Below, piece by piece: positions 3,976 through 29,444 of a DNA stretch of 62,069 nt. The number at the start of each line of letters is the position of its first letter. Position 1 is the stretch's first letter. Location of the stretch: the NCBI GenBank assembly GCA_016218495.1, contig JACRDU010000034.1:1-62069 (forward strand), in the 5' to 3' direction. The translations under genes were made by a program, and so were the position numbers. The notes beneath the pieces were generated by a model. It made no database searches. It worked only from the letters and a program-made list of their open reading frames with translations, and was not told the DNA's origin. This DNA is from Elusimicrobiota bacterium (lineage in GTDB: Bacteria > Elusimicrobiota > Elusimicrobia > UBA1565).

Positions 3976-4343
3976 CCGACCGATTCCGCTGCTGGTCGAC
4001 GGAGAACATCCTCGACCTGTTCGTCGACGGACGCTTGGCCGCCGCCCAAGAGGCGCGGGTGGGACGCCATCTCGAGGCCTGCCCGTCCTGCCGCGCCAGG
4101 GCGGAGGAGCTCCAGCCCCTGGCCTTCAAGGCCGCGGCCCCCGCGCAGGCCCCGGCCGGGCTGGCCGACGCCATCTTGCGCCGGTTCAACGAACGCTCCA
4201 CGGCCCCGGCCGCCCCGGTCTGGAGGCTGACGCCGGCCCAGGCCGTCGGGCTGGCCGCCCTGGCCCTCCTCGCCCTCTCGCACGGCGTTCCCGGGCCGAC
4301 GACGGCGGCCCTGAAGCCCGCCGCCGTGGAGGCCCCGCGATGA
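3972..4343 (+). CDS. Zinc-finger anti-sigma factor, single-pass membrane protein
   Basis: A 123-residue protein with an N-terminal anti-sigma zinc-finger segment of the HxxxCxxC type (HLEACPSC near residues 34-41). One hydrophobic helix near residues 85-105 (AVGLAALALLALS) probably anchors it in the inner membrane with a short periplasmic tail. Such proteins hold the co-encoded ECF sigma factor inactive until an envelope signal releases it. It overlaps both neighbours by ATGA junctions, so the three genes should be translated from one mRNA. The periplasmic part is only about 20 residues, so the signal may be sensed by a partner, possibly the next gene product. Confidence 0.85.
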   Translation: MTDRFRCWSTENILDLFVDGRLAAAQEARVGRHLEACPSCRARAEELQPLAFKAAAPAQAPAGLADAILRRFNERSTAPAAPVWRLTPAQAVGLAALALLALSHGVPGPTTAALKPAAVEAPR

Positions 4344-6070
4344 ACGCGCGCGCGGTCTCCCGGCTCGATGCGGCGCTGGAGGCCTGCCTGCTCGCCGCGG
4401 CCTTCCTCGTCCCGCTGGCCGTCCATCTCAAGGCCTACGACCCCTACAGCCTGAAGTCCGCGCTGCTCTGCACCGGGGCGCTGCTGGCCGTCGGCCTCTG
4501 GCTGGCCCGCGCCCTCGAAGCAGGGCGCTTCGAGCTGCCGTCGTCGCGCGCGCTGACGGCCGGCCTGGCCGCGGCGCTCTTGGCCTGGTCCATGCTGCGC
4601 GCCGGCCCCGCGGCCGACGCGGCCCTTGCCCGCGCGGCCGGACCGGCCCTGTTCCTCGCCGTCCTGCTCGGACCCGGCTCCGCGTCCTTCGCGCGCTCGC
4701 TCTCGTGGAGCGTGCTGGCCTCCGCCGCGGCCGCCTCCCTCTACGCGCTGGCCGGCGCGCTGGGGTTCGACCCGCTGCCGTGGAGCCCCCGCGGCGGCAC
4801 GCTCGGCTCGGGGAGCCTGCTGTTCGCGGCGCAGCTCTGCGCCCTGCCGATGGCCTGGCCGCTGGTGGTGGACCTCGAAGCCTCCCGGGAGCGCCGCGCC
4901 CTGGCCTGGCTGTTGGCCGCGCTCTGCCTAGCCGGCCTGACCGGCGGGGCGGCGTCGCTCGACGCCGCCGCCCTGGCCGCCGCCCTGCCCGGCAAGGCGC
5001 AGGCCATGGGCGTGTTGAGCGGGCTGTTCGCCGTCTCTCCCCTGATGGGCGCGGGAGCCGGGGAACTCTCCCTCCACCTGCTCTCGGGCCTGCCCGAAGC
5101 CGCCACGGCGCTCCCCATGCTCCCGCCCTCCGAGCCCTTGGCCACCGCCGCCGAGCTCGGACTGCCCGGAGCCCTGCTCTGGACCGCCATGGTGCTGGGA
5201 GCCCTCTCCATGGCCCTCCTCGAGGCGCGCCGCCGCTCCGGCTCGGGCGACGACAGGGGCGCGGCGCTGTGCGGCGCGCACGCGGCGTCTTTGGGCCTGC
5301 TCACCCTCGCCGGGCTCGTCAGCGCCGCCACCTACGCCCCGGCCCCGGGGCTATGGCTGTGGCTGATAGCCGGCTCCGCCGCCGCCCTGGCCACGGAACG
5401 CGGCTCGGCCGTCGTCAGCGCCTCCGCCGTCCCGCTGCCGGCGCCGGCGCGCCGCCTGCTCCTCGTCCCCCTGGGCGCGGCTCTGCTCCTGGTCTGTGCC
5501 CTGCCGGCCGCCCGCCTTGGCGGCCAGCTCATGCTCAACCGCGCAGCGGCCCTCGAGGAGGCCGGAGACCCGCGGGGCGCGCTGGAGCTCTACCGGACCC
5601 TGCGTCCCGAGGACGCGGCGGGGCTCCAGGCCTCCCTGCGCGCCGCCCGGCTCCTGCTGCAGGAAGACGACGGGGACTCCGTCGTCCAGGCCCGCGAGGT
5701 CCTCGCCGGAGCGATGCGCTTCGACCCGTACTTCGCGGACGCGCTTTTCCTGTGCGCCGAGGCTGACCGGCGGCTCAAGGAATGGGGAGAGGCGGAGCGC
5801 GGCTACGCGCTCTATGCCCGGCTCAACCCTGGCGACCCGCGCACCTACCAGCCCTTGGCCGAGATGCGCCAGACCCTGGGCGACCCGGCGGGGGCCGTCG
5901 CCTCCGCGCAGACCTTGGTCCGCCTCGCCCCCGAGGACCCCGAGGCCTGGCGCTTCTACGCGGAGACCGTCCACTCCGTCGACCCGGCCGCCGCCCGCCC
6001 GCTCTTTGCGAAGGCCGCGCAGGTGCGCGACCTGGCGTCGGCGCGCAAGGACGCCCGCCCCCTGCCCTAG
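4340..6070 (+). CDS. Polytopic membrane protein with C-terminal TPR domain (O-antigen-ligase-like architecture)
   Basis: A 576-residue protein with about ten hydrophobic helices over residues 10-390. A soluble C-terminal part of about 180 residues follows, with tetratricopeptide-like helices (for example EEAGDPRGALELYRTL and EWGEAERGYALYARLNPGD). The layout resembles O-antigen ligase/Wzy-like proteins carrying C-terminal TPRs, but the family motifs are not clear enough to assign enzyme activity. It follows the anti-sigma gene with an ATGA overlap. It may therefore be the target of, or sensor for, the sigma/anti-sigma pair. Ala and Leu content is very high throughout. Confidence 0.6.
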   Translation: MNARAVSRLDAALEACLLAAAFLVPLAVHLKAYDPYSLKSALLCTGALLAVGLWLARALEAGRFELPSSRALTAGLAAALLAWSMLRAGPAADAALARAAGPALFLAVLLGPGSASFARSLSWSVLASAAAASLYALAGALGFDPLPWSPRGGTLGSGSLLFAAQLCALPMAWPLVVDLEASRERRALAWLLAALCLAGLTGGAASLDAAALAAALPGKAQAMGVLSGLFAVSPLMGAGAGELSLHLLSGLPEAATALPMLPPSEPLATAAELGLPGALLWTAMVLGALSMALLEARRRSGSGDDRGAALCGAHAASLGLLTLAGLVSAATYAPAPGLWLWLIAGSAAALATERGSAVVSASAVPLPAPARRLLLVPLGAALLLVCALPAARLGGQLMLNRAAALEEAGDPRGALELYRTLRPEDAAGLQASLRAARLLLQEDDGDSVVQAREVLAGAMRFDPYFADALFLCAEADRRLKEWGEAERGYALYARLNPGDPRTYQPLAEMRQTLGDPAGAVASAQTLVRLAPEDPEAWRFYAETVHSVDPAAARPLFAKAAQVRDLASARKDARPLP

Positions 6071-21119: not shown

Positions 21120-24100
21120 CTACCTTATAAAGAGGGTCAGCCCGCCCCACACCGAGGCCCAGGCCCGGGGCAGCACGGAGGAGAAGAGCTTCGTGAACCA
21201 GCCCTGGGGCGCCGCGGGCGCGGCGGGCTGGTCGCCGTACTTCTTGTCCGCTTCGTCGTACATCGTCTTAGAACGGGCGGCCACCGCGTCGAGGTCCTTG
21301 AGGTCCGAGTCCATCGCGGCCAGGGCCTTCTCGAAGGACATCAGCCCCGCACCGACCGCCTCGACGCCGCCCGCCACCGGCTCGGCGGTCCGTTCGACGA
21401 GGTCCTCGAGGTAGAAGGTGTAGCCGTTGGGCAGCGTCCGGCCGGCCGCCTCGTAGGCCTTGACCATCCGCTCGATGAGCAGGGCCATCTTGCCCGTAGT
21501 ATGCGGCGCGGCCATCGAGGTCCCCGACATGTAGTGGTAGAGGGTCTGGTCCTTCCAGCGCACGGCGGTGGGCTCGGAGCCCATCGCCTCGGCCAGGCGG
21601 CGGTTCAGCGCGGAGACGATCTCGTAGGGGTTGGGGAGTCCGAAGAAGACCCCGCCGCCGAAGTCGAGCCAGCTCACCAGCCGCTCGCCCCGCGCTCCCC
21701 GCGAAGAGTAGTCGGTGAGCCCGCGCTTCTTGTCGACCGCGCCGACCGAGACGGCCAGCGGGGCGTTGGCGGGAGACCCCACCGTGCCCTCCATCGGGCC
21801 CTCGTTGCCGGCTGCGGCGATGACGAAGATGTTCTTCAGGCGGAGCTTGTTCACGAGCCGTCCCATCGCGCTGTCGGGAGAGCCGGGGCCTCCCAGGGAG
21901 AGGTTGACCACCACGGGGTCCTTGAGAGGATCGGCCGAGAGGCTGGCCGCCCACTCCAGGCCCGCCATCACGGTGGCCTCCGAACCGCCCTGGGCGCCGA
22001 GGACCTTCCCCACGGCGAAGCGCACGCCGGGGGCCATGCCGACATAGGGCGACCCGTCGACGGATTGGCCGCCGACGATCCCCATGCCGTGCGTGCCGTG
22101 GCTGACGCTCTCGGACTCCACATCCTCGGCCCCGCCCTCCTCGGCGACGAAGTTGCGCTTGCTCGCGATGCGCGAGCGGGGGATGGCGGGATGGTCGGTG
22201 TCCCCGCCCTCGTCGAGGTAGGCGACGAGCACCTTCTCCCCGGTCAGCGACCGGCTCTCGCGGGCCGCGGGCATGTCGGAGAGGGGCCCCGTTTCCTTCA
22301 GGAAGCGGTACATCGGCCCTGCGCGGGAGACCTTGAAGCCCCGGCCTTCCAGCTCAGCGCGCAGCGCGGTGACTTTCGCGGCCGGGACGTTCATCCATAG
22401 CGTCTGGGAAAGGGGCATCGCCGCCTGGAGGGCCGCGTCATGGCGCTGGATGGTCTCCGCATCAAGGCCATAGGCCTGCGCGGACTCCACCGCGTTCTGC
22501 GCGGGCAGTCCGCGGAAATCCTGGAAGCGGGCGATGCGCGCCCCTCCCTCCGGGAGCTCCACGATGAGGTGGACCGCGCCCAGGGCCGAGTCGACCCCCG
22601 GGACCCCGGCCCCGTGGGGGTCGGGCAGCGGCGTGGGCAGGTCCAGCGGCACGTTGACCACGCGGGCGAGCAGGCGGACCATCTGGCCCAGCGCGCCCTC
22701 ATGGTTCGCATACGCCTTGAACTTGTTGATGAAATCCACCACGGCGCCCTTCAGGGGCTCCTCGGAGATCCGACGCCTGGCGTCCGGGGAGCGCGATACG
22801 GCGGCGAAGAACTTCGCTATGGTCCGGGTCAGCGCGAAGTTCTGAGGGCCCGAGGCGGCGAGCAGGCCGAGGATGGTCTCATTGGTCACGGACCCCGGCT
22901 GGTTCGACGCGATCTCGGTCAGGGAGGCCACGGCGACGTGGCGCACGTTGCCCCTTTCCTTCTCGTTGACCGCGCGCGCGCTCAGCGCGTCCGACGCGGA
23001 CGGCGGGGCGCGGGTCCCCAGGCGCCCCAGCAGCCAGACCGCGCTCATGCGCACGCGCTTGTCCTCGTGCCCGGCCGCCTCGGTGAGGCGGGCCAGCCCG
23101 CTCTCGTCTCCGTGCCGGGCCAGCGCGTAGGCCGAGTACATCCTGACGTCCGGGCGGGAGTCGGCGAGGGCGGCGCGCAGCGCCTCGTCGGCGGCGTAGC
23201 TCTGCGCCTCCGCGAGGGCCAGGAACGCGGCCTGGCGCACGCGCGGCTCGGGGTCGGAGAGGGCCGCCTCGACGAGGGCGACGGCGGCTTCGGGCGTCTT
23301 ATGGTTGGCCAGGGCGAACGCGGCGTAGAACCGGACGAGCCAGACCTCGTCCTTGAGGGCCTTGGTCAGGCCGGCCGCGGCATCGGTCCGCGCCGCGGTG
23401 AAAGCCCGGTCGAAGGCGACGTTGGCTTGGTCGCCCAGCTCCCCCTTGGCCGCATCGGCGGCGGCCGCATCCTCGATAGGGGCTTCGGAGGCCGCGGACG
23501 GCTCCGCCTTCTTCTTAGCGTCCAGGAAGGACTTGCGCGCCGCTTCGGCCTCCAGGTAAGGCTTGTCCTCCAGCGCCCAGACCGCTTGGGCGCGCGAGAC
23601 CCAGTCCCAAGGCTCGGCCGAGGCCTCGGAGACCGCGGCCAGCGAGGAACGGCCGGCGGAGACGAGCAGGCGGGCGATGCGCCGCGGCAGGCTGAGCAGC
23701 TCGCCGCCGAAGGTCCGGACGGCCAACCGGACGGCGGCCTCCGCGTCGACGAAGCCGCCTTCCTGGAAGAAGAGCGGCACGCCCATGTCCTTGGAGGAGC
23801 GCATCAGGACGAGGGTGACGGCCTGAGGCAGGTTCTCCATGAAGAAGCGGTGCGCGGGGGTCCCCTCCTTGAGCACCTTGAGGGCGGCCTGCTTGACCAG
23901 CAGGGCGATGGCGGCCACCATCGGGTTCGACATTGAGGTCCCGGACATCCGGGTATGCTTCCCGTCCGGCGCGTCGGAGACGCCGGCCGGCATGTCCTTG
24001 GACTTCACGGATTCGATGCCGTGTTCATAGACGTCCGCCACGCCCGGGGGGGTGGTCACGTCGCCGCCCAGCGCCGTCAGGCCGTAGGGCCTCCGCCAGC

Positions 24101-27100
24101 GCGCCCGGCTCCAGCGGCGGTCGATGACCGGGCCGACCGACGAATAGAACGAGATCTCGGGGACGCCGTCGTCCTCGCTCTTGGCGGCCGCCGTCACGGT
24201 GGTGACGAACTCGCCGGAGGAGGGCTGGGAACGCGTCTCGTTGAACGGCCCGGCGTTGCCCGCCGAGGCCGTGATGATGGGGAAATGTCCCCGGGAGTTC
24301 TTCTTGCGCGAGAGGTCCGAGAAGAACTTGGCCAGCGGCGCGTCGACGGTGCCGGGGCTGCCCAGGCTCAGGCTGATGACGTCGGCGTCCCACTGCATCG
24401 CGTCCATCGCGGCGGCCATGATGTCGCCGTCCGAGGCCCCGAAGCCGTTCTGGGAGAAGACCTTCCCCATCCGTCCTTCGGCCTTGGGCGCCATGCCCCG
24501 GTAGACGGAACCGTCCGCGTAGGAGATGCCGGCCTTGTGCGAGCCGTGCCCGACCCAGTCTTCCGGCCCCTCGTTGACGAAGTCGATGGACATCAGGCCG
24601 CGGCCGGCGAAGTCGGGGTGGGTCGTGTCGAGGCCGGTGTCGATGTCGTAGATGCGGCCCCCGGCGCCGTCGAACCCCAGCGCCCAGGCCTTGTCCACCC
24701 CCTGGACGGGTCCGGACGTGCGCAGGTGCAGGGAGTAGCCGGAGACGGACTGCTCCACGGAATAGCCGCCCTCGGCCCCGAAGCGCTTGAGCGCCTTCGC
24801 ATGCGATCGCCGGACGCTCACATAGAGCTTGCCGCCGAACTCCTCTCCGAAGGAGTGCTTCACGCGCAGCCCGGCGCTGCGGAACCTGGCCAGGTCCTCC
24901 TCCGAGAAGCCCGCGTCGCGCAGGATGGCCTCCTGGCGGCTGCGGGGCTCGGCGAACAGGCGCGTCTCGTTGGTCCAGACCTTCCCCCCTTCCTTGGGCC
25001 TGAGCCAGAGGTCCACCCGGGGCTCGAGCTTGCGGGCCACGATGACATGCCCCCCTTCGGGGAGGTCGACGCGGGAGACCATGAAGGAGCCGCCGTCGGA
25101 GCCCTGCCAATAGCGGACCAGGCGCTGGACGGTGTCGAGCCCGGTCTCGCCGGGGGCGAAGGGCAGCAGGAGCGCTCCCTTATAATCCATAGACTGGTAG
25201 AGCTTCTCGAGCACGGCGGCGGCCTGGACCTGGGCCAGCCCCTGGCGGGCGGCCTTGAACATCATCTCGTCGAGCATCGACTTGATCCGGCCGGCCTTGG
25301 GCTTCTCCCGGCCCCGGCGGCCCAAGGTCTCCGCGGCCAGGTCCCCGAAGCGGCGGCCCTCGGGCGTCCCGTCGGCGAAGGCCGAAGGGCCGGAGACGGC
25401 CAGCTTCTGGCGCAGGAGGCTCAGCTCGTCGAGCTTGCGCAGGGCCGACTGCAGGCGCAGAGACTCCGGGGTCTCTCCGGAAGGGAGCGCGCCGAAGCTC
25501 TGCGGATAGACGATGAGCCGGAAGCGCTCGCCGTAGCCCTTGGCGCCCAACGCCGCGATGATCCTGTCCGCGGCGGGAAGCTGGTCCTCGCGGCGCGAGG
25601 CTGCCCCGCTCACCATGGCGATGGACCTCGCCTCGGCCGGCGCGCCGGTCTCCAGGGAAAGCATGCGGGCTTTACCGCCGGAGAGCTCGATGTAGGTCTG
25701 GGGGTTCCTCGTCTCGTGGGAGCCGGGATGGACGATCAATGCGTCGTATTCGTGCCCGAGGTCGAGGGAGATGTGCGCGTCGTGCAGGACGCGCTCGAGC
25801 ACCGGGATGCGGAGGCTCGAGAGCGTCCTCTTCGGGGTCCACTCCTTGATGCGGGCGTCGAGCTCCGAAGAGAGGAAATCCCAGCCGCGCCGGAGCAGGC
25901 CCCCGTCCTGCGGGGGTCCCCGCCCTTTGTCCTTCGCGTAGTGGGCCAGCTCATGGCGCAGGACCCAGCGGAACAGCCAGGGGGTGCGGGCCAGCTCCGG
26001 CCTGAGCCAGATCGAGCCGGCCTGCGTGAATGCGAAGGAGAGGTGTTCGAAGGGCTGCGCCGGGCGCCAGACCTTGAGCAGACCGCGCCCCGGGCCGGTT
26101 CCGAGGAGGCTGGCGGTCACGCTGGGGTGCAGGTTCCAGCGCCGGACCTCCTTGCGCACGAAGCGCCAGAACTCCTCGTCGGAGACCGGCGCCCGCTTGG
26201 CCACGGCGAAGGTGAAGAGCGCCGCCTCCCATGCGGCGTAGGCGGCGGACATCGCCGCGGCTATCCCCGCCGCCGCCGCGAAGACCGTGGCCGTGGCGGC
26301 CACCGTCCCGGTGGCCGGGATGTTGAGGGCGCCCAGCGCCCCCGGCAGCCAGGAGGAGAAGACGTTGAAGGCGGCCGGGCCGAGCGTCAGGACGGCGAAG
26401 AGGGCGCCGGCCGCCGCCGCCAGGGTCAGAGGGAAGTAGACGGAACGGTGCCGGACGCCGGTATCCGTGCGGGCAGGAGCCGCCGGCATCGCGCCGCGGA
26501 CCGGAGCGGCCGCGCCTTCCTGCGGGCGGGACAGCCCGGAGGCGGCACGCGCCGACTGGACGCCTCCCGCGGGGATGGCCTCGGCGGCCCGGGACAACGG
26601 CTCGCCGGTCACCCGGCGCGCGAAGTCCTGTTCGGCCGAGGCGCGCGACCCGGACCCCGAGGCGCCGGGAGAGACCGAAGAGGGCAGGGAAAGGGCCGCC
26701 ATGACGGCTTTGAAGGACTTGCTCGCCGCCGCCGGAGATTCCGCCGTCCCGAGGAAGGCGGGAGCAGCGGCCTCGGAAGAGGGCGCGGCCGGGACCGGGG
26801 CAGCGAAGGCGGGGCGGAACGCCGCGGGCGCCGCCGATAGTCCGGCGGGAGCGGGGGTTACGGCGGCGGCCCGCGCGGCGCCGGAGGCGGAGGCGGAAGG
26901 CCCCAGCACGGGGGTGGGCAAGGGGATGGAGGGCAGGACGGGGGCCGCGGCGCCCAATCCCGGCGCGGCCAGGGACGGCAGGCCGAGGGAGACGACCCCG
27001 GGAGCGGCGGCCGCCGCTCCCGTCACAGGCGCCGCCGGGGCGGCCGGGGCCGCCGTCCTCACCACCTGGGCCCAGCCGGACGTCCCGGGGGCCGCGAGGA

Positions 27101-27140
27101 AGACCGAGGCGGCGAGCAGGGTGGCGAGAGAGCGCTTCAT
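21120..27140 (-). CDS. Giant exported multi-protease: HExxH segment, subtilisin, HEAT repeats, subtilisin
   Basis: A 2006-residue protein. A signal peptide (SLATLLAASVFLAAPGTSGWA) is followed by about 200 residues rich in Ala, Pro, Val and Ser and two hydrophobic stretches at about 230-320. His396 begins HELAHYAKD, the zinc HExxH motif of M48/M56-like metallopeptidases. The first S8 domain has Asp834 (DIDTG), a His in GHGSHKAG and Ser1069 (SGTSMSNP). HEAT repeats span about 1260-1375 (DPEPRVRQAAFLALAEAQ, SRPDVRMYSAYALARHGD). The second S8 domain has Asp1643 (YLDEG), a His in SHGTHGMG and Ser1875 (SGTSMAAP). Both subtilisin triads look intact. It follows the 27143-28330 gene by 2 bases. Confidence 0.88.
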   Translation of the reverse strand: MKRSLATLLAASVFLAAPGTSGWAQVVRTAAPAAPAAPVTGAAAAAPGVVSLGLPSLAAPGLGAAAPVLPSIPLPTPVLGPSASASGAARAAAVTPAPAGLSAAPAAFRPAFAAPVPAAPSSEAAAPAFLGTAESPAAASKSFKAVMAALSLPSSVSPGASGSGSRASAEQDFARRVTGEPLSRAAEAIPAGGVQSARAASGLSRPQEGAAAPVRGAMPAAPARTDTGVRHRSVYFPLTLAAAAGALFAVLTLGPAAFNVFSSWLPGALGALNIPATGTVAATATVFAAAAGIAAAMSAAYAAWEAALFTFAVAKRAPVSDEEFWRFVRKEVRRWNLHPSVTASLLGTGPGRGLLKVWRPAQPFEHLSFAFTQAGSIWLRPELARTPWLFRWVLRHELAHYAKDKGRGPPQDGGLLRRGWDFLSSELDARIKEWTPKRTLSSLRIPVLERVLHDAHISLDLGHEYDALIVHPGSHETRNPQTYIELSGGKARMLSLETGAPAEARSIAMVSGAASRREDQLPAADRIIAALGAKGYGERFRLIVYPQSFGALPSGETPESLRLQSALRKLDELSLLRQKLAVSGPSAFADGTPEGRRFGDLAAETLGRRGREKPKAGRIKSMLDEMMFKAARQGLAQVQAAAVLEKLYQSMDYKGALLLPFAPGETGLDTVQRLVRYWQGSDGGSFMVSRVDLPEGGHVIVARKLEPRVDLWLRPKEGGKVWTNETRLFAEPRSRQEAILRDAGFSEEDLARFRSAGLRVKHSFGEEFGGKLYVSVRRSHAKALKRFGAEGGYSVEQSVSGYSLHLRTSGPVQGVDKAWALGFDGAGGRIYDIDTGLDTTHPDFAGRGLMSIDFVNEGPEDWVGHGSHKAGISYADGSVYRGMAPKAEGRMGKVFSQNGFGASDGDIMAAAMDAMQWDADVISLSLGSPGTVDAPLAKFFSDLSRKKNSRGHFPIITASAGNAGPFNETRSQPSSGEFVTTVTAAAKSEDDGVPEISFYSSVGPVIDRRWSRARWRRPYGLTALGGDVTTPPGVADVYEHGIESVKSKDMPAGVSDAPDGKHTRMSGTSMSNPMVAAIALLVKQAALKVLKEGTPAHRFFMENLPQAVTLVLMRSSKDMGVPLFFQEGGFVDAEAAVRLAVRTFGGELLSLPRRIARLLVSAGRSSLAAVSEASAEPWDWVSRAQAVWALEDKPYLEAEAARKSFLDAKKKAEPSAASEAPIEDAAAADAAKGELGDQANVAFDRAFTAARTDAAAGLTKALKDEVWLVRFYAAFALANHKTPEAAVALVEAALSDPEPRVRQAAFLALAEAQSYAADEALRAALADSRPDVRMYSAYALARHGDESGLARLTEAAGHEDKRVRMSAVWLLGRLGTRAPPSASDALSARAVNEKERGNVRHVAVASLTEIASNQPGSVTNETILGLLAASGPQNFALTRTIAKFFAAVSRSPDARRRISEEPLKGAVVDFINKFKAYANHEGALGQMVRLLARVVNVPLDLPTPLPDPHGAGVPGVDSALGAVHLIVELPEGGARIARFQDFRGLPAQNAVESAQAYGLDAETIQRHDAALQAAMPLSQTLWMNVPAAKVTALRAELEGRGFKVSRAGPMYRFLKETGPLSDMPAARESRSLTGEKVLVAYLDEGGDTDHPAIPRSRIASKRNFVAEEGGAEDVESESVSHGTHGMGIVGGQSVDGSPYVGMAPGVRFAVGKVLGAQGGSEATVMAGLEWAASLSADPLKDPVVVNLSLGGPGSPDSAMGRLVNKLRLKNIFVIAAAGNEGPMEGTVGSPANAPLAVSVGAVDKKRGLTDYSSRGARGERLVSWLDFGGGVFFGLPNPYEIVSALNRRLAEAMGSEPTAVRWKDQTLYHYMSGTSMAAPHTTGKMALLIERMVKAYEAAGRTLPNGYTFYLEDLVERTAEPVAGGVEAVGAGLMSFEKALAAMDSDLKDLDAVAARSKTMYDEADKKYGDQPAAPAAPQGWFTKLFSSVLPRAWASVWGGLTLFIR

Positions 27141-27142
27141 GG

Positions 27143-28330
27143 TCAGCGGATGAAGATGAGCTCCGGCTGGGATTCACGCGCCGTCTTCTTGGGTTCGGGC
27201 TCCGTCTTGTCCCATATCCAGTAGCGGTCCTTGCGGGACGAGGGCACGCTGCGGGCCTCGGGCATCGCGCTGGAGCGGCGCCGCGGGGCCTTGGGGGGCG
27301 GGACCGGGTCTATCTCGCGGGGACGCTCGGGCGCCGACTGCGCGAGGTTGGGCGGCCGGTTCCGGCCGTGGCGCACCAAGGCGCTGCGCGCCCCGATCCG
27401 GAACGGCGCGGCCAGGCCGGTCGAGATGACGAAGGACTTGCCCGCCATCGGCCCCATCGCCTTGAGCTCGCCGTTCATGAAGAACTTGAAGAAGGACCCG
27501 TCGCGCTGGAAGCCGGCGATGAAGCGCCCGTTGTCGGCATAAGGGCTGTTGGAGGCCCGGCCGACGGACGGAGTGATCAAAGGGGTCTTCCACTGCGCCT
27601 CGAGCTTGTCGCTCACGGAGCCGATGACCCTGTTGTAGCCGAACCCGGCGAACGGGAGGTACTTGCCGTAGCTCTGGCTCGCCATCAGGTTGAGCCCGAA
27701 GGAGCGCACGTCCCATTCCAGCGTCCCGAAGTTCGTCGAATCCGCGAAGAAGCCGTTGGTCAGCTCGACATGCTTGAACTCGTTGGTGAAATTGAAGAAT
27801 CCGAAGGTGTGGTTGTAGATGGCGGAGACGCTGACGAGGGGTTGCTCCCCGCCCATGAAGTGCTTGCGGACCGCCACGCCGAGGGTGTTCGACTGCCCGT
27901 CCCCGGTCGTCGTCGGGGAGAGCTTATAGTTGCTCGGCGTCGTCATGTTCGCGAAGCGGGCCCCGAAGTCCGTCCGGCCCGGCAGCCCCATGCGCATGTG
28001 GATGGTCAGGTTGGGGAACATCATCTGGCTCGGCAGGGCCTCCTCCGGGTGCTTCTCAGCCAGCGAGGCGACCTGCATCCTCGGGAACGCCTTCTTGTCG
28101 AAAGGGAGGAAGCCCACGCCGAGGCTGACGTCGGGCTGGATGCGCCAAGGCCGCACCTCGGTGGGCGGGGAGAAGGACGAGCCGGAGTTGAATCCGAGGC
28201 CGTCGGCCGTGCCCTTGGTCAGCCAGTCCATGATGCGGGAGAAGTCGTCGGACATCGAGGGGTTCGCGGCGCGGGCGGGCGACGCCGCGCCCGCCAGGAT
28301 CGCCGCCGCGAGAAGGGTCCCCAGGGCCAT
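27143..28330 (-). CDS. Exported beta-rich protein, possible outer-membrane barrel
   Basis: A 395-residue protein with a signal peptide (LGTLLAAAILAGAASPARA). The mature part has Gly/Phe/Asn-rich amphipathic segments suggestive of a beta-barrel (SLGVGFLPFDKK, LVSVSAIYNHTFGFFNF, FGLNLMASQSYGKYLPFAGF). The last 75 residues are instead a hydrophilic tail rich in Pro, Arg and Lys (PPPKAPRRRS). The ATG at 28330 has no ribosome binding site. TAGAAT lies seven bases upstream. Only two bases separate it from the giant protease, so the two are probably cotranscribed and could act together. I do not recognise the family. Confidence 0.65.
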   Translation of the reverse strand: MALGTLLAAAILAGAASPARAANPSMSDDFSRIMDWLTKGTADGLGFNSGSSFSPPTEVRPWRIQPDVSLGVGFLPFDKKAFPRMQVASLAEKHPEEALPSQMMFPNLTIHMRMGLPGRTDFGARFANMTTPSNYKLSPTTTGDGQSNTLGVAVRKHFMGGEQPLVSVSAIYNHTFGFFNFTNEFKHVELTNGFFADSTNFGTLEWDVRSFGLNLMASQSYGKYLPFAGFGYNRVIGSVSDKLEAQWKTPLITPSVGRASNSPYADNGRFIAGFQRDGSFFKFFMNGELKAMGPMAGKSFVISTGLAAPFRIGARSALVRHGRNRPPNLAQSAPERPREIDPVPPPKAPRRRSSAMPEARSVPSSRKDRYWIWDKTEPEPKKTARESQPELIFIR

Positions 28331-28337
28331 TACAGTA

Positions 28338-28343
28338 ATTCTA
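28338..28343 (-). promoter_or_regulatory. TAGAAT hexamer seven bases before ATG
   Basis: This minus-strand -10-like hexamer matches the consensus at 5 of 6 positions and lies seven bases before the ATG at 28330. It suggests a leaderless or nearly leaderless transcript. Confidence 0.4.
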
Positions 28344-28445
28344 TCGGGGGCCCGACAGGCATACCCGGGCTCTAGGGCCCAACGCCCCGCTGTAAAAGGA
28401 CCCAGGGCGCACGGCTCGGAAGACCTATCCGCGCCCGGAGTGGTA

Positions 28446-28473
28446 TAAATAGAGGAAGGAGGCATGGTGTCAG
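28446..28473 (-). promoter_or_regulatory. Possible upstream promoter, CTGACA-N16-TATTTA
   Basis: The -35-like CTGACA occupies 28473-28468 and TATTTA 28451-28446, in an AT-rich patch. It would drive 27143-28330 with a leader of about 110 bases. It competes with the closer TAGAAT as the true promoter. Confidence 0.3.
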
Positions 28474-28560: not shown

Positions 28561-29403
28561 CTATAGCTCGAAGACGCGCAGGGTCTTGCCGTCCTTCTGG
28601 AGGCCGATCCTCTTGTCTTTGTAGACCTTGAAGACCGCCATCTTGTCGGATGGGACGGTCTCCTCGGGAATCAAGAAAACGTGCATCTCCTCCCCCTCCT
28701 TCAGGATGAGTGCGAAGGTGCGCGAGTTGGGGTTCAGGGAGGCTCCTGAGGCCGTCTCCTGCACGTCCTGGTAGTAGAACAGCCTGTAGCTCTGGCCGGT
28801 CAGAGGGAGCGCCTGGCCCGAGGCTTCGATGGCCTCCAAGAGCTTGCCGAGCCGGACGGATTGGAGGTCGTCCTCGTTGGCCTTGTTCTCGAAGGTGATC
28901 TTGCTCTTGAGGGGCTGGAGCGGGTTGGCCTCGAGGTAGAGGGAATAGACGGCGCCGCCCGAAACGACGGTCCCCGCCTTGTCGAGGAGTCCTTTGATGT
29001 TGAAGACCAGGGGGGCGGCCTCGCCCTCGACCCAGACCGTCAGGAAAGCGTTCTGCTGCCTGTCGAAGACTCCCCCGATGAAGGACTTCTTCCCGCCCAA
29101 GGTCACGGTCAGCTGGGACTTCAGGTGCGCGTTCAGGAGGGCCCCGAGGTCGACCTCGGTCCCCTTCGCCAACGGGATGCCCCGGGTCCCTTCCTGAGGG
29201 GCGCTGACGGCCTGGAACGGGGGTTTCTGGAGCGGGACCCCGGTCAGGCCCTTGAATTCTGCCGAGCGGAAGGCGGAGGCGGGCAGAGACGTGGCGGCGA
29301 AGTAGGAGCCGCGGGCGGCGACGGCGGACCCCTCGAGGGTCGGGGCCGCGTAGGCGGCCGGGGCCAGCAGGGCCGCGGCGACCAGGGCGATGGGCGTCTT
29401 CAT
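28561..29403 (-). CDS. Exported protein of unknown function
   Basis: A 280-residue protein with a signal peptide (MKTPIALVAAALLAPAAYA). The ATG at 29403 was chosen because GGAGAGAGG immediately precedes it and the signal peptide starts there. The mature part is a mixed alpha/beta domain (SQLTVTLGGKKSFIGGVFD, AFLTVWVEGEAAPLVFNIKG, KSKITFENKANEDD, RTFALILKEGEEMHVFLIPE). It has no Cys and no recognisable catalytic motif. It looks monocistronic: a good promoter with a leader of about 108 bases lies upstream and a hairpin downstream. A periplasmic or surface role is likely but unspecified. Confidence 0.72.
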   Translation of the reverse strand: MKTPIALVAAALLAPAAYAAPTLEGSAVAARGSYFAATSLPASAFRSAEFKGLTGVPLQKPPFQAVSAPQEGTRGIPLAKGTEVDLGALLNAHLKSQLTVTLGGKKSFIGGVFDRQQNAFLTVWVEGEAAPLVFNIKGLLDKAGTVVSGGAVYSLYLEANPLQPLKSKITFENKANEDDLQSVRLGKLLEAIEASGQALPLTGQSYRLFYYQDVQETASGASLNPNSRTFALILKEGEEMHVFLIPEETVPSDKMAVFKVYKDKRIGLQKDGKTLRVFEL

Positions 29404-29421
29404 CCTCTCTCCAAGTCCCAC

Positions 29422-29444
29422 CACCGGCTTGTCGGCCGCCGGTG
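29422..29444 (-). promoter_or_regulatory. Leader hairpin just upstream of ribosome binding site
   Basis: CACCGGC and GCCGGTG form a 7-bp stem in the predicted 5' leader of the exported-protein gene, ending some 11 bases before its GGAGAGAGG. It could modulate translation or protect the mRNA. Confidence 0.35.

Follow-up and report, generated by a model that had tools for sequence, protein, structure and literature searches.

A 2006-residue Elusimicrobiota protein carrying two complete subtilase domains, a HEAT solenoid and a conserved HExxH...E site

In the stretch of 62,069 nucleotides analysed here (the window: positions 1 to 62,069 of contig JACRDU010000034.1, assembly GCA_016218495.1), which belongs to an uncultured groundwater-type Elusimicrobiota bacterium, we have identified a single open reading frame (ORF) at 21120-27140 on the minus strand, starting with ATG and encoding a protein of 2006 residues. 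The chain carries two subtilase (Peptidase S8) domains with complete active sites, a HEAT solenoid between them and, further towards the N-terminus, an HExxH motif followed by a conserved candidate third zinc ligand; the protein has its own family of relatives, and its gene is linked to that of a barrel-type protein. The reading that we favour, with roughly even confidence, is that of an exported, probably membrane-anchored protease zymogen of the cell envelope, in which the subtilases follow pro-domains and are probably self-cleaving. While the anatomy of this chain is well supported, the assignment of a specific cellular role is not.

Layout of the chain and its two subtilases

21120..27140, minus strand: multi-protease gene, 2006 residues (ORF, codon-position GC, homologues)
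27066..27140, minus strand: signal-peptide-like N-terminus, residues 1-25 (by eye; N-termini of relatives comparable)
26457..27065, minus strand: Ala/Pro-rich linker of low conservation, residues 26-228 (identity 17-44% within its own family)
26202..26438, minus strand: hydrophobic helical hairpin, probable membrane anchor, residues ~235-313 (hydropathy; model helices 8-37 and 51-86)
25785..26195, minus strand: HExxH domain, putatively gluzincin-like in fold, residues 316-452 (conservation; modelled helices with the ligands)
25941..25955, minus strand: HELAH motif, residues 396-400 (motif scan, alignment)
25863..25865, minus strand: E426 in SELDAR, candidate third zinc ligand (invariant in 25/25 aligned)
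25002..25778, minus strand: conserved region of alternating strands and helices, kind not assigned, residues 455-713 (AlphaFold2 model)
24696..25001, minus strand: pro-domain-like segment preceding subtilase 1, residues 714-815 (AlphaFold2, Foldseek, hhalign)
23721..24695, minus strand: subtilase 1, residues 816-1140, with D834, H865, N962 and S1069 (Pfam, Foldseek, alignment)
22641..23390, minus strand: HEAT solenoid, residues 1251-1500 (Pfam HEAT_2; helical repeats in the AlphaFold2 model)
22281..22640, minus strand: pro-domain-like segment preceding subtilase 2, residues 1501-1620 (AlphaFold2, hhalign)
21321..22280, minus strand: subtilase 2, residues 1621-1940, with D1643, H1681, N1779 and S1875 (Pfam, alignment)
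27143..28465, minus strand: partner, a DUF6588-like protein of outer-membrane-barrel type (directly upstream; likely true start near 28330)
28561..29424, minus strand: exported-type protein of 287 residues (in the conserved neighbourhood at ten other loci)

The GC content of the ORF by codon position (0.70/0.54/0.93) matches coding DNA of a high-GC genome. Pfam recognised two stretches of Peptidase_S8 (whole-protein E 1.4e-59; the best PF00082 stretch in subtilase 2 covers 1634-1919) and three of HEAT_2 (1.9e-26, 92.6 bits), with HEAT at 46 bits and several repeats above the cut-off; residues 1-815 matched no Pfam family. Both S8 sets are complete, the oxyanion Asn included, and the residue directly preceding this Asn (961 and 1778) is Gly in each; by their motifs both domains fit Peptidase S8, and serine-protease activity is predicted for both. 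A first-pass annotation, made from the letters of the stretch, had reported the 2006-residue ORF with HELAHYAKD at 396, two full Asp/His/Ser sets ending at Ser1069 and Ser1875, and a HEAT solenoid separating the subtilases. ORF and motif positions agree with the first of these, motifs, Pfam and alignment confirm the second, and the HEAT_2 matches together with the helical repeats in the AlphaFold2 (AF2) model of residues 700-1899 (predicted local distance difference test, pLDDT, 75.5) bear out the third.

When this model was compared by Foldseek, pro-subtilisins and subtilisins were matched over about 460-500 columns, among them ProN-Tk-SP (E 1.8e-18) and unautoprocessed pro-subtilisin E. AF2 shows strands and a helix in the segment before subtilase 1, and the segments ahead of the two subtilases are alike (hhalign probability 61%, E 8e-5). 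Because a pro-domain-like segment thus precedes each subtilase, self-maturation of the protein is plausible. In a tree of the subtilase domains, those at position 1 group apart from those at position 2, both groups being fully supported, which rules out a recent internal duplication and implies that any duplication would be old.

As for export, the N-terminus, MKRSLATLLAASVFLAAPGTSGWAQ, resembles a signal peptide by eye and similar N-termini are found in relatives. Hydropathy peaks of 1.9 and 1.7 mark the hairpin at residues ~235-313, a region that is hydrophobic in the relatives as well. Signal peptide and membrane helices were both assigned from sequence and hydropathy alone.

These features can be combined as follows. 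The signal peptide would take the chain across the inner membrane, in which the hydrophobic hairpin would then probably hold it, and the small metal site of the gluzincin type (HExxH...E) would be positioned by the membrane. Next would come the two subtilase units, each with its pro-domain-like segment ahead and with the HEAT solenoid in between; each subtilase would most likely fold on its pro-segment, be inhibited by the same segment, and then cut its own pro/mature junction, at about residues 805-820 and 1610-1630. Such cleavage would yield two or three pieces, which the HEAT scaffold may keep together; their substrates may be exported or outer-membrane proteins, and they may work next to the barrel protein whose gene lies just upstream.

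The HExxH site and its domain

HELAHYAKD spans residues 396-404, and E426 sits 26 residues after H400. H396, E397, H400 and E426 are invariant in 25/25 aligned family members at a mean column identity of about 40%, E426 being as conserved as the HExxH itself; this alignment omits two divergent members of the wider set in which the site is lost (L056 and L065), one with a frame break at the site (L067) and truncated rows. Shuffling the window protein produced HExxH in 3.1% of cases and HExxH with ExxA 15-40 residues downstream in 0.5%. Because the four residues are invariant throughout the aligned rows, the motif is, to judge from the alignment, not a chance occurrence. The frame break of L067 (9155-10498 and 4923-9467), whose genome is a single contig, falls precisely within the HExxH helix and is possibly a sequencing error.

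The AlphaFold model of residues 228-850 (pLDDT 78; predicted template modelling score, pTM, 0.69) presents, in order, two long hydrophobic helices, a strand pair, the HELAH helix and, on the successive helix, E426. The gluzincin arrangement, HExxH with a downstream Glu, is present in H396, E397, H400 and E426, and the conserved site is gluzincin-like by motif and by helix order. Since no peptidase fold was matched, we infer a gluzincin from these two features and speak of a putative one, which may bind zinc. Peptidase M48 (PF01435) and M56 (PF05569) gave no Pfam match in 27 members (for M48, none at E<=5), and the profiles do not support either as the identity of the domain. Of the two features by which the first-pass annotation meant to judge its possible zinc protease, the third ligand has a conserved candidate in E426; for the peptidase fold, the HExxH region gave no significant match to a known peptidase fold or family.

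Several observations weigh against the reading as a membrane-anchored, self-cleaving zymogen with a metal site. The hairpin helices are rich in Ala and of only moderate hydrophobicity, the model has low confidence in the N-terminal part of subtilase 2, and autocleavage leaves no visible sign in the sequence. As regards the HExxH region, Pfam found nothing above cut-off in 27 members (best E 0.06, in one member), and hhalign to the M48 profile reached 38% probability with the Glu ligand unaligned. Foldseek with the whole 228-850 model returned no peptidase within the top 50, and a PDB profile search of the region gave only projannalysin (4jix) at a non-significant E of 0.77. Moreover, several genomes carry the barrel-type partner without the protease, so that the pair is not obligate. 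Statements of absence are limited by how complete the genomes are: in three (G018, G050 and G009) that seemed to lack the protease, the contigs end shortly past the partner gene.

The same lack of a family or fold match could mean that HExxH does not function as a metal site and that the N-terminal domain is structural, which would leave a double subtilisin only. The loss of HExxH in the two divergent members, and its apparent absence from the collinear place in a giant homologue described below, point the same way. We nevertheless find this doubtful, as the four ligand and catalytic residues do not vary in an alignment that is otherwise so divergent, and the modelled helix-helix layout is that of gluzincins.

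For the conserved region that follows, residues 455-713, a class I methyltransferase was considered after a Foldseek match to 1wg8 (E 5e-5), but the template modelling score was 0.18 with a root-mean-square deviation of 14.8; profile comparison gave 1.4%, a PDB profile search came back empty, and the identity was rejected.

The family, its pseudo-subtilases and the giant reading frames

Residues 228-700 of the window protein, used as query, found matches in 38/57 genomes (that of the window included), mostly in ORFs of ~1,800-2,870 aa where contigs allow, and a search with an alignment model placed the family in 40/341 Elusimicrobiota genomes, nearly all within the order of the window. This conserved family has no full-length match to any database family. 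A scan of a named collection yielded 22 records matching most of the query or matching to the contig end, all titled Elusimicrobia/Elusimicrobiota or only "bacterium", and one further match, a Myxococcales contig that resembled the HEAT/linker query weakly and over a short stretch; as the scan relied on one peptide pattern, restriction to the phylum is given as observed rather than as established. The layout that the first-pass annotation had called exceptional is exceptional as a statement on the family; the gene itself is conserved lineage-wide and is not a one-off. Cysteine is nearly absent across the family, with 0/2006 in the window protein, 0-9 in relatives and 6 in an ORF of 17,755 aa.

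When the window protein is aligned with 29 relatives, its catalytic regions prove conserved and its N-terminal linker poorly so. Identity to the congener is 87% and about 75-78% in the subtilase regions, against 44% in the linker; the subtilase regions are thus among the best-conserved parts, which we counted in favour of the exported zymogen. Within its own GTDB family (clade support 100/98), both S8 sets are complete in 5/5 relatives that cover them, or 6/6 with the window, and among aligned full-length members an intact subtilase 2 occurs only there. The other aligned full-length members have a deletion that removes the Asp/His part of subtilase 2, and in place of Ser they have Gly, Ala or no residue. 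The remnant in members of a second family is clearly homologous (hhalign E 1.5e-46) and is a predicted pseudo-subtilase. Loss in this second family would be the simpler history, because a second S8 with a Ser motif is also collinear in the distant giant ORFs. In three relatives (L051, L063 and L065) the catalytic Asp of subtilase 1 has in turn become Gly, and both subtilases appear dead; loss of His together with Asp was considered for these three, and the alignment shows that Asp was lost alone.

In several second-family members the reading frame continues through amylase-type and GDE_C domains (E down to 8e-98), and in others the glycogen-debranching enzyme is the next gene. L047, L048 and L049 carry it separately whereas L043, L044 and L046 carry it fused, forming a fusion/fission pair. 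The window genome has one GDE_C match, on a different contig. In another family of the same class, unbroken ORFs of 17,755 and 14,654 aa (the latter in G230) lie within their contigs, and a related frame of at least 10,571 aa fills its contig (G231). The 17,755-aa ORF (L196:8767 to L199:2031, that is G229:C5:8767-62031; 55% GC) contains a remnant of the HExxH region at 4239-4302, S8 at 4730-5107, HEAT at 5147-5315 and a second S8 at 5534-5737; order and spacing are those of the window protein, with positions shifted by an almost constant value of about 3,900 residues. It also holds PLD, glycosyltransferase, DUF885, MscS-type and AAA domains, as well as M48, M50, M14, ClpB-type and met-zincin domains.

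Perhaps, then, the subtilases mainly separate linked enzymes: exported multi-enzyme polyproteins of up to 17,755 residues would be cut by an internal subtilase-HEAT-subtilase module, and the window gene would be the smallest stand-alone form, a short version that has a zinc-protease site. A debranching or amylase-type domain, complete and C-terminal in some second-family relatives, fits such a precursor, as does the debranching enzyme encoded by the next gene in others, and so do the S8 and HEAT parts of the module lying among whole enzymes in the 14,654-, 17,755- and contig-limited 10,571-aa ORFs. Yet the window protein consists of proteases, scaffold and an unassigned region only, and since subtilase 2 is dead in those second-family members that carry a fusion, any cutting would fall to subtilase 1 or to an enzyme in trans. 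We identified no cleavage motif, and the length of an ORF is no proof of cleavage. We therefore regard a polyprotein precursor as unlikely.

The barrel gene and comparison with known systems

The stop codon of the partner gene lies 2 bp ahead of the protease ATG in the window, and a partner homologue adjoins the protease gene in nearly all loci that extend that far. Against DUF6588 (PF20230) the window partner scores 19.7 bits, below the cut-off of 27, while 24/24 aligned homologues match (best 7.7e-9), and a few of these 24 also match outer-membrane barrels. The partner is present in 49/341 genomes. A variable tail rich in Pro and Lys leads to its C-terminus, a hydrophobic tetrapeptide, IF[IL][QR], that is conserved and closes 21/327 ORFs of the examined loci, every one of them a partner; as a docking tag specific to the protease it was rejected, for partners in protease-less genomes keep a similar hydrophobic end. 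Behind the protease, an amidase gene follows in the window and in three relatives of its own family.

In some protease-less genomes the slot behind the partner is occupied by an exported amylase-type gene. One such protein (L223:5223-9032), from a genus of small genomes, has a multi-helix hydrophobic region at its C-terminus and replaces the protease. This slot thus holds, depending on the genus, a protease, a protease-amylase fusion or an exported amylase-type protein, which would suit a secreted exoenzyme scavenging nutrients together with exported alpha-glucan enzymes, the outer-membrane barrel serving for product uptake. We think this improbable: a membrane hairpin is probable, Pfam found no carbohydrate- or peptide-binding modules in the window protein, and a pseudo-subtilase retained across most of the order speaks more for a part in regulation or scaffolding than for bulk digestion. 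An anti-phage defence protein is highly improbable. PADLOC models do match the subtilase (6.8e-25) and a HEAT-ARM protein (5.7e-9), but these matches reflect generic domains, and the protein is exported, has an HExxH region that is single copy in the genome, and is syntenic with an envelope barrel gene. An exported protease zymogen, probably anchored in the membrane, remains the reading that we prefer.

Among known systems, the secreted pro-subtilisins Tk-SP, pro-subtilisin E and fervidolysin, which were top Foldseek matches, share with our protein the order of a pro-domain followed by S8. Each of them has one catalytic domain, and none is known to carry a HEAT or metal-site partner in the chain. 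In M48, M56 and the minigluzincins, the HExxH helix is preceded by a strand pair and the Glu lies on the following helix, and in M48 and M56 transmembrane segments come before the domain; the helix order in the window model is similar to that of gluzincins (projannalysin 4jix, M48, M56), without a significant match.

It is unusual for one chain to hold two complete subtilases. Two subtilase domains per chain, as in the window protein, are found in CspBA (NCBIfam NF040809) of Clostridioides difficile and relatives; the match of the window protein to NF040809 is marginal (E 2e-4; 19.1 bits, below the cut-off of 1250). To our knowledge, CspBA lacks a HEAT solenoid, a metal site and a membrane hairpin. 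Its state of one active and one dead subtilase recurs in the second-family relatives, whereas in the window both are complete. In fact, among the Csp proteins of C. difficile only CspB is predicted to be catalytic, CspA being a pseudoprotease (PMC6199464, PMC12880746). Our literature search found no description of two complete subtilases, an HExxH...E site and a solenoid in one chain. The family offers a natural series (both subtilases complete, the second dead, the first without its Asp, fusion to glucan enzymes, and a place inside giant ORFs) with which the transition from protease to pseudoprotease scaffold could be tested.

Finally, Elusimicrobiota are enriched in proteins of >5000 aa that have no functional assignment (PMC11573180; PMC12057145). 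The likeness to the huge proteins of Elusimicrobiota and PVC-group bacteria lies in the occurrence of very long chains in this phylum; in contrast to those reported, a defined internal protease module here ties a 2006-aa protein to the giants. The family is also a tangible starting point for work on the uncharacterised huge proteins of the phylum.

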